Origin: Aureimonas sp. AU22
GTDB taxonomy: Bacteria > Pseudomonadota > Alphaproteobacteria > Rhizobiales > Rhizobiaceae
Direction: 5' to 3'
DNA: 64,000 nucleotides
Assembly: GCF_001463745.1 (NCBI RefSeq)
Contig: NZ_BBWJ01000028.1
Span: forward strand, 28,717-92,716
A program made the translations under genes and the position numbers. Positions 59,788-64,000 of this stretch are shown here, piece after piece. A model generated the notes under the pieces. It did no database searches and was not told the origin of the DNA. It saw only the letters and a list, made by a program, of their open reading frames with translations. Numbering within the stretch: the first letter of the stretch is position 1; each line of letters opens with the position of its first letter.

Positions 59788-61458
59788 CTACAGCGCTCCT
59801 TGCGCGGGCATCGGCAGGAAGGCCACCCGCTCGTAGGGCACGTCGGCGCGCGGCAGCGCTGCGCGATCGCGAATGATGTCGGCGGCCTTTTCCGCGATCA
59901 TGATGGTCGGCGCGTTGAGATTGCCGGTGGTGATCGAGGGCATGATCGAGGAATCGACCACCCGAAGCCGCTGCGTCCCGATCACGCGCGTTTCGGGGTC
60001 CACCACGGCCAGCGGATCGTCCACCGCTCCCATCTTGCAGGTGCAGGACGGGTGGTAGGCGCTCTCCACGTGCTCGGTGACGAAGCGGTCGATCTCCTCG
60101 TCGCTCTGCACCGCCTCGCCCGGCTGGATCTCGCGGCCCCGATAGCGGTCGAACGAGGGCTGCGCGAAGATCTCGCGCGTCAGACGCACGCAGGCGCGCA
60201 TCTCCGCCCAGTCGTCGGGATGGCTCATGTAGTTGAAGAGGATGCGGGGCGCTGCCGCCGGATCGCCGGAGGCGAGGCGCACGTGGCCGCGCGACTTCGA
60301 GCGCATCGGTCCGACATGGGCCTGGAACCCGTGTTCGGAAGCGAGGCCGCGCCCGTCGTAGGTCACGGCGAGCGGCAGGAAGTGGTACTGGATGTCGGCA
60401 TGCTCGACGTCGGGGCGCGAGCGGATGAAGCCGCAGCTCTCGAAATGGTTGGTGGCCCCGAGACCCCGCTTGGTGAAGAGCCAGCGCGCGCCGATCGATC
60501 CCTTGGCAAACGGCGTCATCGCAGAGAACAGCGTGATCGGCTCGCGGCAGGCGACCTGGAAATAGAATTCCAGATGATCCTGCAGGTTCTCGCCGACGCC
60601 GCGTCGGTCCGCCACGACGGCGATCCCGTGGCTCTTCAGCTCGGCGCCGGGTCCGACGCCGGACAGCTTCAGGAGCTTCGGGCTGTTGATCGACCCGGCG
60701 GCAAGGATCACCTCGCGCCGGGCCAGCGCCCGGCGCGCCACACCGCCGACCCGGTAGGCGACGCCGGACGCGGCGGTGCCGTCGAAGAGGACGCGCTCCA
60801 CCAGCGCATGCGTGACGACCTTGAGGTTCGGCCGGCCGAGCGCCGGCTTCAGATAGGCGTTGGCGGTGGACCAGCGCCGGCCGTTGTGGACGGTCATGTC
60901 CATCCGGCCGAAGCCTTCCTGCGTCGCGCCGTTGATGTCCTCGTTGAGTGCATGGCCGGCTTCGCCCGCCGCGCGCACGAAGGCGTCGTAGAGCGGGTTG
61001 GCGAGCGTGCCGTAGGTCGTGTGCAGCGCGCCCTCGGCCCCGCGATAGGGATCGCCCCCCGCTCGCCGGTTCTCGGCCCGGCGGAAGTAGGGCAGGACGT
61101 CCGGGTAGCTCCAGCCCGCGGCACCCTCGTTCTCCCAGCGGTCGAAATCGGCCGGCGCGCCGCGCACATAGACCATGCCGTTGATCGAGGACGAGCCGCC
61201 CAGCACCTTGCCGCGGGGGCAGTTCATCCGCCGGCCGCCTAAATGCGGTTCCGGTTCGGATGCATAGCCCCAGTTGTACTTGCGCATATTCATCGGGATC
61301 GACAGCGCGCTCGGCATCTGGATCAGCACCGAGCGGTCCGAGCCGCCGAACTCAAGGACGAGGACGGTGCTCCGGCCGTCCTCGCTCAGCCGATTGGCAA
61401 GGACGCAGCCGGCCGAGCCGGCGCCGACGATCACATAGTCGAAGCTCTCGATCTCCAC
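59788..61458 (-). CDS. betA: Choline dehydrogenase
   Basis: Membrane-associated FAD enzyme (GMC family) oxidising choline to betaine aldehyde, and on to betaine. 556 aa. FAD motif [18 protein letters not shown] near residue 6, GMC signature [18 protein letters not shown] near 84, and a C-terminal [10 protein letters not shown] with the catalytic His. It starts 15 nt after the betIB frame stop. Confidence 0.95.
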
Positions 61459-61473: not shown

Positions 61474-63585
61474 TCAGTAGGGGGCGTCGACGCGCCCGAG
61501 ATTGACGTAGACGCTCTTGGCCTGCGTGTGCGCCAGAAGCGCCGCGCGCCCGTTCTCGCGGCCGAGCCCCGATTCCTTTGCGCCGCCGAAGGGCAGTTCG
61601 ATCGGCGTGATGTTGTAGGTGTTGATCCAGGTCGTACCCGCCTCGAGGCGCGCCACGACGCGGTGCGCGCGGGCCAGATCCCGGGTGAAGACGCCGGCGG
61701 CCAGGCCGAAGCGCGTGTCGTTGGCGCGGCGTACCACCTCGTCCTCGTCGCGGAACGGCAGCACGGTCATGACGGGGCCGAAGATCTCCTCGCGCACGAT
61801 CGCCATGTCGTCCGTGCAGGCGTCGAAGATCGTCGGCTCGACGAAGAAGCCGTCCGCCAGAGGTCCGGCGGTCGCGCGCTCGCCGCCGGCCAGGAGCGTC
61901 GCGCCGCCGCGCCTGCCCGCCTCGATGTAGGACAGGACCTTCTTCATGTGCGCCTCGGAGATGAGGGCGCCGACCTGCGTCGCGGGGTCGGCGGGATCGC
62001 CGACGACCATGGCGCGGGTCCGCTCGGTGAGCTTGCGCAGAAACGCCTCGCGCACGTCGTCGTGGACGAAGACGCGCGTGCCGTTGGAGCAGACCTCGCC
62101 GGCCGAATAGAAGTTGGCGAGCATCGCGCCGCCGACGGCATCATCGAGGTCGGCGTCGGGGAAGACGATCAGGGGCGACTTGCCGCCGAGCTCCAGCGTC
62201 ACCTGCTTCAAGGTGGTGGCGGCGTCGGCCATCACCTTCTTGCCGGTGCCGACCTCGCCGGTCAGCGAGATCTTGGCGATGCCGGGATGGCGCGACAGGA
62301 GGCGCCCGGTGCGCCCGTCGCCCTGCACGACGTTGAAGACGCCGGCCGGCACGCCGCACTCGGCCATCACCTCGGCGAGCTTCAGGGCGGTCAGCGGCGT
62401 CAGTTCGGCCGGCTTGAAGATGAAGCTGTTGCCGGCGGCGAGCGCGGGAGCCGCCTTCCAGCAGGCGATCTGGAGCGGATAGTTCCAGGCGCCGATGCCG
62501 GCGACGACCCCGAGCGGCTCGCGCCGGACATAGCCGAAGGCGGAGGGGCCGAGATCGACGTGCTCGCCCGCGATGCCGGCGGCGAGCCCGGCGAAGTATT
62601 CGATGCAGTCGGCGCCCGACAGGACGTCGACGGCGAGCGTTTCCTGGATCGGCTTGCCGGTGTCCTTCGTCTCCAAGAGCGCGAGCTCGTCGTTGCGCTC
62701 GCGCAGCCGGCTGGCCACGCGGTTGAGGATGCGCCCGCGCTCGGCGCCGGTCATCGCGCCCCAGGCCCGCTGCGCCTCGCGCGCCAGCGCCACCGTCTCG
62801 TTCACCTCCCGCTCGCCGGCGATCGCGATCTCGGCCAGCACCTTCCCGGTCGCGGGGTTGATCGTGGCGAAGGTCTCGGTCTCGGCCTCTTGCGGCAGGT
62901 AGGCTCCGCCGACATGACTGGTGAGCACCGGCACGCCCGGCATGCGCGGTGTCGCGCCCAGGCGCCGGTTCGCGGGTTTCGGCCTTGCTTCGGCGATCTG
63001 CACGTCGGTGAAGCTCGTGGCGATGGCGCAAGCCGCCGCGCTGTCGGTTTCCCCGGCATCGGACAGGGAGGAGCGCAGCCAGAGCCCGTCGATCACCGCG
63101 GCGATGGCCACCGCGACCCGGCCGACGTCCTCGGCCGCCACCAGCTGCCGGAGGTCGTGACGCAGGTTGGACAGCATGCGCTGCTGGTAGACCCGCTGAA
63201 CGCGCTTCAGCCGGGCCGAATGCAGCACCTGCCCCCAGAAGGCGAGCCAGACGGAGCCCGTGCGGCTATCGAATTCTTCCGGCGCGAGGTTGGCGTCGAT
63301 CACGCACTGGATCCGCTCGCGCGGGCCGTCGGCCCGTTGGAGGCGCCAGCGCGTGCCGTCGGAGACGCGCGTCGCCAGGTGACGTAGCGTCGCCTCGAGG
63401 AGGCCGTCCTTGTCTCCGAAGTAGTGCGACACCAGCGAGGGCGCGACCCCCGCACGGCCAGCGATCTCCGAGAGGCTCGCGGCCGCGAAGCCGACATCGG
63501 CGAGCGCCTCGATCGTTGCCTCGATCAGCTGCCTGCGGCGCTGGTCTTCGAGGCCGAAACGAGGGGCGGTGTTGGGGCGGCCCAT
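61474..63585 (-). CDS. BetI-BetB fusion: TetR-type choline repressor joined to betaine aldehyde dehydrogenase
   Basis: One open frame of 703 aa. Residues 1 to about 198 are a full BetI: helix-turn-helix ASLSEIAGRAGVAPSLVSHY near 40-60 and a ligand domain with TGSVWLAFWGQV and AVIDGLWLRSSL. A linker of 16 or so residues rich in Arg/Pro leads to Met215, from where 489 aa form a complete BetB: INPATGKVL, GAWNYPLQIACWK, ELGGKSP and catalytic Cys499 in AGEVCSNG (Cys285 of the BetB part, where E. coli has 286). Start ATG 63585 has GGAGA 9 nt upstream. No stop separates the parts and no ribosome site precedes Met215. Separate genes are the rule; a frameshift artefact would not usually leave both parts complete. 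Confidence 0.8.
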   Translation of the reverse strand: MGRPNTAPRFGLEDQRRRQLIEATIEALADVGFAAASLSEIAGRAGVAPSLVSHYFGDKDGLLEATLRHLATRVSDGTRWRLQRADGPRERIQCVIDANLAPEEFDSRTGSVWLAFWGQVLHSARLKRVQRVYQQRMLSNLRHDLRQLVAAEDVGRVAVAIAAVIDGLWLRSSLSDAGETDSAAACAIATSFTDVQIAEARPKPANRRLGATPRMPGVPVLTSHVGGAYLPQEAETETFATINPATGKVLAEIAIAGEREVNETVALAREAQRAWGAMTGAERGRILNRVASRLRERNDELALLETKDTGKPIQETLAVDVLSGADCIEYFAGLAAGIAGEHVDLGPSAFGYVRREPLGVVAGIGAWNYPLQIACWKAAPALAAGNSFIFKPAELTPLTALKLAEVMAECGVPAGVFNVVQGDGRTGRLLSRHPGIAKISLTGEVGTGKKVMADAATTLKQVTLELGGKSPLIVFPDADLDDAVGGAMLANFYSAGEVCSNGTRVFVHDDVREAFLRKLTERTRAMVVGDPADPATQVGALISEAHMKKVLSYIEAGRRGGATLLAGGERATAGPLADGFFVEPTIFDACTDDMAIVREEIFGPVMTVLPFRDEDEVVRRANDTRFGLAAGVFTRDLARAHRVVARLEAGTTWINTYNITPIELPFGGAKESGLGRENGRAALLAHTQAKSVYVNLGRVDAPY

Positions 63586-63786
63586 GAAGACAGTCTCCGT
63601 CGCATGCGAAGGGCAGAGCGGGTTGATCACCCATTCAATCGACCGAAAACCCGGCCGATGCAATCCCCGATGCCGCGCAGGCGCACAAGCGTACCGGCTT
63701 CGTTACCGGCAGTAGAGCGAGAAATATGCGCAAAACTCGTGCACGCTGACTTCGAATTGGTCCGGGAACGTCTTCGGCCACAAGAA

Positions 63787-63802
63787 TTGAACGTGCGTTC
63801 AA
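63787..63802. promoter_or_regulatory. Candidate BetI operator
   Basis: TTGAACG-TG-CGTTCAA, a perfect 16-bp palindrome in the 351 bp between betIB (leftward) and the next gene (rightward). It resembles the TTGAACGTCCAA-type site reported for E. coli BetI as I recall it. It lies 7 bp upstream of a consensus -35 box for the rightward gene, a good place for control of both directions. Confidence 0.6.
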
Positions 63803-63936: not shown

Positions 63937-64000
63937 ATGATGTCGTCGAGCCGGGTTCTGGCCGCAAGCCTTGCCACCCTCGTGATCGCGGCTCTCCCGT
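63937..64000 (+). CDS. Secreted protein, 5' end only (runs off the window)
   Basis: ATG at 63937 (or the adjacent ATG at 63940) preceded by GGAGGGAGA. The first 21 residues read as a signal peptide (MMSSSRVLAASLATLVIAAL). Divergent from betIBA behind the operator candidate, it could be the choline-binding protein of a choline ABC importer, but this is only context. Confidence 0.6.
   Translation, partial: MMSSSRVLAASLATLVIAALP

Follow-up and report, generated by a model that had tools for sequence, protein, structure and literature searches.

A predicted single-chain fusion of the choline repressor BetI with betaine aldehyde dehydrogenase in Aureimonas and other Alphaproteobacteria

Repressors that are fused to an enzyme of their own pathway are, to our knowledge, few. 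The textbook repressor–enzyme fusion is PutA, which uses a flavin switch that has no counterpart in an aldehyde dehydrogenase (ALDH). A long N-terminal part precedes the ALDH domain in ALDH1L1 (10-formyltetrahydrofolate dehydrogenase) as well, as it does in the protein described here, but the N-terminal domain of ALDH1L1 is enzymatic and does not bind DNA. Trifunctional PutA is described, in the accessible part of PMC9132996, as a DNA-binding repressor and catabolic enzyme with an ALDH domain that acts on its own pathway, a combination also found here. By Pfam, our protein differs in lacking the proline dehydrogenase domain and in having a DNA-binding part of the TetR type, while the Aldedh domain is present. 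Its architecture and operators would fit a protein that works like PutA, as a fused enzyme repressing its own genes. In BzdR, too, an enzyme domain is joined to a DNA-binding domain, in this case a shikimate-kinase-like domain to an HTH; the accessible text of PMC3602430 proposes loss of activity as a step toward a pure regulator. The present case differs from BzdR in that live and dead versions occur in related species and in that the fused repressor already had a ligand domain. We consider PutA and BzdR the nearest concepts to the BetI–BetB protein.

The two halves themselves are familiar as the separate BetI and BetB proteins of the betIBA operons of E. coli, Pseudomonas, Sinorhizobium and Ruegeria. 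As far as the accessible text of PMC12442346 goes, these operons have the same two families in the same order and BetI-box-like palindromes like those described below, with choline as the effector of BetI. The BetIs are described there as separate proteins, and the word "fused" is absent from that text. In our case, there is one predicted chain rather than two, and separate operators more often come in pairs.

The window, that is, the whole stretch of 64,000 nucleotides of Aureimonas DNA that was analyzed, contains one uninterrupted frame of 703 codons that encodes a BetI repressor followed by a betaine aldehyde dehydrogenase (Table 1). At an E-value of 0.001, Pfam detected a TetR_N and a BetI-type C-terminal domain (TetR_C_6) in the first half and Aldedh at residues 234–692, and no domain beyond these three in the fusion protein. 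The first 215 residues scored 208.3 bits against the NCBIfam BetI family TIGR03384 (cut-off 201.3), and the second half scored 767.4 bits against the betaine-aldehyde dehydrogenase family PRK13252 (cut-off 593). With TIGR01804, the second half fell on the line, scoring 667.2 and 668.8 in two scans against a cut-off of 668.6. Cys499, Glu465 and Asn368 are all present; their catalytic roles are presumed from the ALDH family. By these measures, the BetI half is complete, and the BetB half is complete with an intact active site and is predicted to be active as an enzyme. The initial annotation had read this gene as a stop-free frame of 703 codons, with a BetI half that keeps its DNA-binding and ligand domains and a full BetB with its catalytic Cys, and was correct on each of these points.

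Table 1. Positions in the window of the betIB fusion gene, its parts and the neighboring features.
Feature	Position	Strand	Remarks
betIB fusion gene	61474..63585	-	ATG at 63585, TGA stop ending at 61474; 703 codons plus stop
BetI half, residues 1–196	62998..63585	-	TIGR03384 score above cut-off
TetR_N DNA-binding domain, residues 20–65	63391..63528	-	Pfam
TetR_C_6 BetI-type C-terminal domain, residues 88–194	63004..63324	-	Pfam
Linker, about residues 197–223, Pro/Ala/Arg rich	62917..62997	-	Sequence variable; length varies by whole codons
Met215, proposed internal start	62941..62943	-	Weak Shine–Dalgarno, -2.4 kcal/mol
BetB half, residues 224–703, ALDH fold	61477..62916	-	Family scores, Pfam, structure model and structure searches
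Catalytic Cys499	62089..62091	-	Located in alignment and sequence
General-base Glu465	62191..62193	-	Located in alignment
Shine–Dalgarno GGAG of fusion gene	63595..63598	-	Duplex -6.6 kcal/mol
Proximal BetI-like operator TTGA-N8-TCAA	63623..63638	.	Motif search; predicted
Distal BetI-like operator TTGAAC-N4-GTTCAA	63787..63802	.	Motif search; predicted
betA choline dehydrogenase	59788..61458	-	15 bases downstream of fusion gene, own Shine–Dalgarno
Divergent choX-like gene, start	63937..64000	+	Cut by contig end; identity inferred from relatives

An AlphaFold2 model of the fusion protein consisted of two folded domains (mean pLDDT 84.4, pTM 0.65), with weak stretches at residues 206–210 and, within the ALDH half, in three places. 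Structure searches, which mainly covered residues 215–703, showed that the BetB half is modeled like the solved betaine aldehyde dehydrogenases (BADHs) and has the BADH fold. Sequence searches identified 3e7q, a generic TetR, as the best solved relative of the TetR half, and found ALDH1L1 (PDB 7rlt and 7rlu), which matched at chain residues 425–898.

The initial annotation had raised the doubt that a missed stop or an assembly frameshift had created the fusion, and had looked to related genomes for single BetI–BetB proteins. We checked the frame in 61 genomes, comprising the window's own, 20 of the same genus and 40 from a wider set. The full-length frame was open in the own genome and, with 73–89% identity, in all but one of the 20 same-genus genomes; three of those 19 are single-contig assemblies. 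This rules out an artefact of assembly or sequencing, for which nothing spoke beyond the fact that it was seen in a single window, and which we now regard as next to impossible. Single BetI–BetB frames are what the other genus members have, with one exception, G018, in which a separate betB (58% identity) is followed by betA and no BetI match was found; its locus (L186, G018:C1:239000-250000) is also without any operators.

Outside the genus, the frame was open across both halves in 16 of 397 genomes sampled from the order, 127 of which matched at E 1e-150, and in 3 of 385 sampled from the class, both counts including the own genome. Named genomes with a fused locus belong to Aureimonas, Ancylobacter, Azorhizobium, Methylobrevis, Faunimonas, Acidisoma, Gluconacetobacter and Novosphingobium; further fused loci were found in MAGs labeled Bauldia, Caulobacter, Sphingomonas and Gammaproteobacteria. 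We assembled 175 loci and dropped eight (seven ALDH paralogues and L145, a fusion without an active site); BetB scored above the cut in the other 167, of which 79 were fused, 47 had an adjacent separate betI, 10 had a betI nearby and 31 had none that was seen. These loci were fetched by similarity to the window protein, some genomes twice, and the numbers are no measure of prevalence. TetR_N, TetR_C_6 and Aldedh occurred together in 118 of the best 120 listed fusion-length matches to the BetI half. A 646-codon open frame containing BetI directly before a separate betB was seen in a Rhodobacteraceae MAG (L114:4650-6590). The initial annotation had called such a fusion not known. In the literature searched (titles and abstract openings, among the matches listed), we found no report of a BetI–BetB fusion, but UniRef already names some of these proteins "Multifunctional fusion protein". 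As far as could be seen, the fusion is thus catalogued in databases and apparently unstudied.

The contig ends just past the start of the divergent gene. At related loci (L187, L188, L044 and L047), the genes on the divergent side resemble choXWV, with choX coding for the binding protein of the choline ABC transporter, and five scanned divergent proteins (from L187, L188, L197 and L206) scored above the cut-offs of choline ABC transporter families. The operator-like sites lie between betIB-betA and this divergent choline transporter. In the upstream regions of the 20 genus loci, there were 29 TTGA-N8-TCAA sites compared to 0.15 expected from shuffles, and 19 loci had at least one; the 54 other fused loci, some of them near-copies, had 48 sites compared to 0.28 expected, and 38 had at least one. 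Control stretches inside genes contained 0 and 1 sites, respectively. The pattern was not found in the remaining genus locus (L024) nor in 16 of the 54 others. The palindrome at 63787 to which the initial annotation had drawn attention is conserved and looks like an operator. A longer motif occurred 0–3 times per genome (reversed control, 0) and was not found in G018, G008, G010 and G020; the last three have sites of the shorter pattern, and G018 is the genome without the fusion. After de-duplication, 54 of 69 fused loci had a site and 17 had two separate sites (340 bp searched), compared to 41 and 0 of 57 unfused loci (320 bp searched; seven double hits overlap), a contrast that is confounded in that unfused betI may not share the choXWV divergon. 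In 20 of the 21 genus genomes, there was no strong BetI match other than the fused copy, which scored above the cut-off in 17; G004 has a second, weak match besides the fusion, and G018 has none.

Two extensions of the operator analysis did not hold up. Helical phasing between paired operators, as expected for looping, was not apparent at spacings of 97–177 bp (R 0.19–0.33, for 22 pairs or 13 distinct spacings). A wider regulon was considered from nine places where the longer motif occurs elsewhere (e.g., G009:C29:156326), and was rejected, as those near a NUDIX-like gene or within a dppA-like coding region, names given by eye, lack a clear choline link. An operator-like motif does occur near a NUDIX-like gene at an apparently shared place in several Aureimonas genomes (L178–L182; G000:C40:149975 and counterparts).

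The history of the fusion was analyzed in a tree of BetB sequences with 159 rows, after removal of six that were duplicates or partial and of two shorter than 440 residues; the two fused loci with a short BetB that were omitted are, by length, L140 and L088. All 71 fused rows fell inside one clade of 88 (FastTree support 97). Nested in this clade were 17 unfused rows, requiring at least eight changes, four of them forced by well-supported branches. A second tree of 91 rows, in which distant outgroup rows were drawn into the fused clade, needed nine changes, five of them forced. With so many changes in both trees, a single origin cannot be taken as proven, and the nested rows indicate that either fissions or several fusions occurred. 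The simplest reading would be one fusion followed by several fissions. A clade of ten rows (L131–L139 and L142; eleven with L102 in the 159-row tree) has separate betI and betB among the fused BetBs, and probably represents a fission or a pre-fusion branch. In many unfused relatives, betI and betB lie in the same frame with only the stop between them (gap 0), in G024 a single TAG.

Some fusions have lost the active site. The catalytic Cys was missing in 19 of the best 120 listed fusion-length proteins, and the Glu was also missing in 18 of these; in the other, P0083 from Kaistia granuli, a Glu aligned within a changed motif. Four of the 19 are short (P0061, P0071, P0079 and P0088). The named sources of such proteins are Kaistia granuli, K. 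nematophila, K. adipata, "Candidatus Kaistia colombiensis", Kaistia sp. 32K and Zavarzinia. Their loci are L140, L145 and L197–L200 (Kaistia) and L206 (Zavarzinia), and some of the proteins are named simply BetI by NCBI. Among the 167 loci, both residues were kept in 88 of 88 unfused and 78 of 79 fused cases, with the dead L145 falling outside this set. In a tree of the BetI part built from 35 chosen proteins, three changes, one of them forced, were needed to account for the dead state. The 14 Kaistia genomes comprised three with live fusions, four with dead ones and seven without a match at E 1e-100. Three of the four dead Kaistia fusions remain divergent from choXWV, with two operators in between; the fourth, in G814, a fragmented genome that is 92% complete, is cut by a contig end. 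The four genomes had no match above cut-off to TIGR01810 (betA) or TIGR01804 (BADH). The live-fusion genome G815 likewise has no betA above cut-off; its locus (L202, G815:C12) has neighbors that look by eye like sarcosine oxidase subunits. Proteins of the Zavarzinia group have 474–612 residues. In Zavarzinia G696, the dead fusion faces choX with two operators and betA (818.7 bits) lies right downstream, while no BADH was found above cut-off. Loss of betA as the sole occasion for dead fusions is excluded by G815, which lacks betA with a live fusion, and by G696, which keeps it with a dead one.

Several alternatives to a single, functionally joined chain have to be weighed. The initial annotation had considered that BetB might be produced by internal initiation at Met215, which would yield a 51.7-kDa protein; more generally, BetB could be made also or only from an internal start or by proteolysis in the linker. 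Of the 20 genus fusions, only that of the window has a methionine at position 215; L015 and L027 have TTG there, and L026 has no in-frame ATG, GTG or TTG between residues 150 and 245. In most of these 20 loci, a clear Shine–Dalgarno stands ahead of both the fusion gene and betA. We then set aside six loci that were duplicates or partial and compared 73 fused loci with 88 unfused ones, scanning from -40 to +12 codons around the start of the BetB domain and taking -6 kcal/mol or better as a strong Shine–Dalgarno. An in-frame ATG was present in 23 of 73 fused and 85 of 88 unfused loci, and an ATG with a strong Shine–Dalgarno in one of 73 and 45 of 88, so that the start signal found in about half of the unfused loci is nearly gone from the fused ones. 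Eleven fused loci, two of them near-copies, have no ATG, GTG or TTG in this region. On the other side, ten of the 73 (e.g., L021 and L027) do have one of these codons with a strong Shine–Dalgarno near the junction, and a Shine–Dalgarno of -6 or better precedes the fused gene itself in just 42 of 71 loci. Pooled over nine pairs, dN/dS was 0.42 at the junction (residues 191–233), 0.51 in the linker core, 0.05 in the HTH, 0.14 in BetI and 0.11 in BetB, and pN/pS in the linker core was 0.9 or higher in four of the nine pairs. These values indicate strong constraint on the BetI half and, on the whole, a junction that behaves in evolution like translated sequence. It is unlikely that an internal start is conserved, with Met215 rejected as such a mechanism, and we consider two separate products improbable.

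A passive fusion is harder to dismiss. The stop between adjacent and often in-frame betI and betB genes may simply have been lost, leaving two independent, uncoupled halves on a flexible linker. The many unfused relatives in which only a stop intervenes fit such an origin, and so do the loosely constrained linker, with its low pLDDT, and a BetB half predicted to look just as solved BADHs do. It is less easily reconciled with a frame that persists over a deep clade and stays open even where the enzyme is dead; we put this reading slightly short of even odds. The dead ALDH halves might in turn be decaying passengers that have yet to hit a stop. In the four dead Kaistia genes, dN/dS was 0.09–0.16 in the BetI half and 0.40–0.60 in the ALDH half, far above the 0.07 measured for the ALDH half between two live copies. 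Neutral simulation with the GC-rich code gave a chance of meeting no stop of 0.07–0.11 per lineage beyond a distance of 0.2, and of 0.24–0.46 at 0.05–0.1; the shortened proteins of the Zavarzinia group also suggest decay. Against this, dN/dS stays below 1, and all 24 indel events in the four genes, counted on protein alignments and some perhaps shared, were of whole codons (the live pair had none). In addition, the model of the dead protein from Kaistia granuli (mean pLDDT 83.5) still shows an ALDH fold, with a TM score of 0.91 to 6bjp_C by target length; the alignment used for this model holds live homologues and thereby favors such an outcome. The passenger explanation is a serious possibility, if not the one that we would choose. 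Because the dead ALDH half evolves faster and the chance of escaping a stop is 0.07–0.11 or, over shorter times, more, its retention is no more than suggestive of a non-catalytic role.

Our preferred reading is that the gene produces one polypeptide of about 75 kDa, as predicted from the frame of 703 residues, which probably represses betIB-betA and the divergent choline transporter through two upstream BetI-like operators; we assign this a probability of roughly 75%. The whole chain would then be the BetI of these bacteria, acting at its own promoter and that of the choline importer, and at the same time their BetB, with enzyme and repressor subunits set at one per one. Choline would free the chain from DNA, and the same chains would go on to oxidize betaine aldehyde, so that each enzyme molecule would also be a repressor awaiting choline depletion. 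Homologues of the ALDH half form tetramers. More weakly, the ALDH half may tie BetI dimers together and so aid operator binding, which would explain why fusions with a dead active site are kept in frame. The initial annotation had proposed that the oligomeric state or substrate load of the enzyme might influence repression; that evolutionary observation is the sole pointer to such an influence, and it is no more than suggestive. We propose only tentatively, thinking it doubtful on balance, that the ALDH half takes part in the switch itself, either through oligomerization or as a sensor of betaine aldehyde or NAD, and that Kaistia and Zavarzinia have made an enzyme-dead transcription factor from it, in a natural series that runs from separate genes through live fusions to a regulator with a pseudoenzyme half.

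The BetI–BetB fusion joins two well-studied proteins and is found in many Alphaproteobacteria. Related species carry it unfused, as a live fusion and as an enzyme-dead one, so that the route from enzyme to transcription factor would be directly testable with extant proteins.
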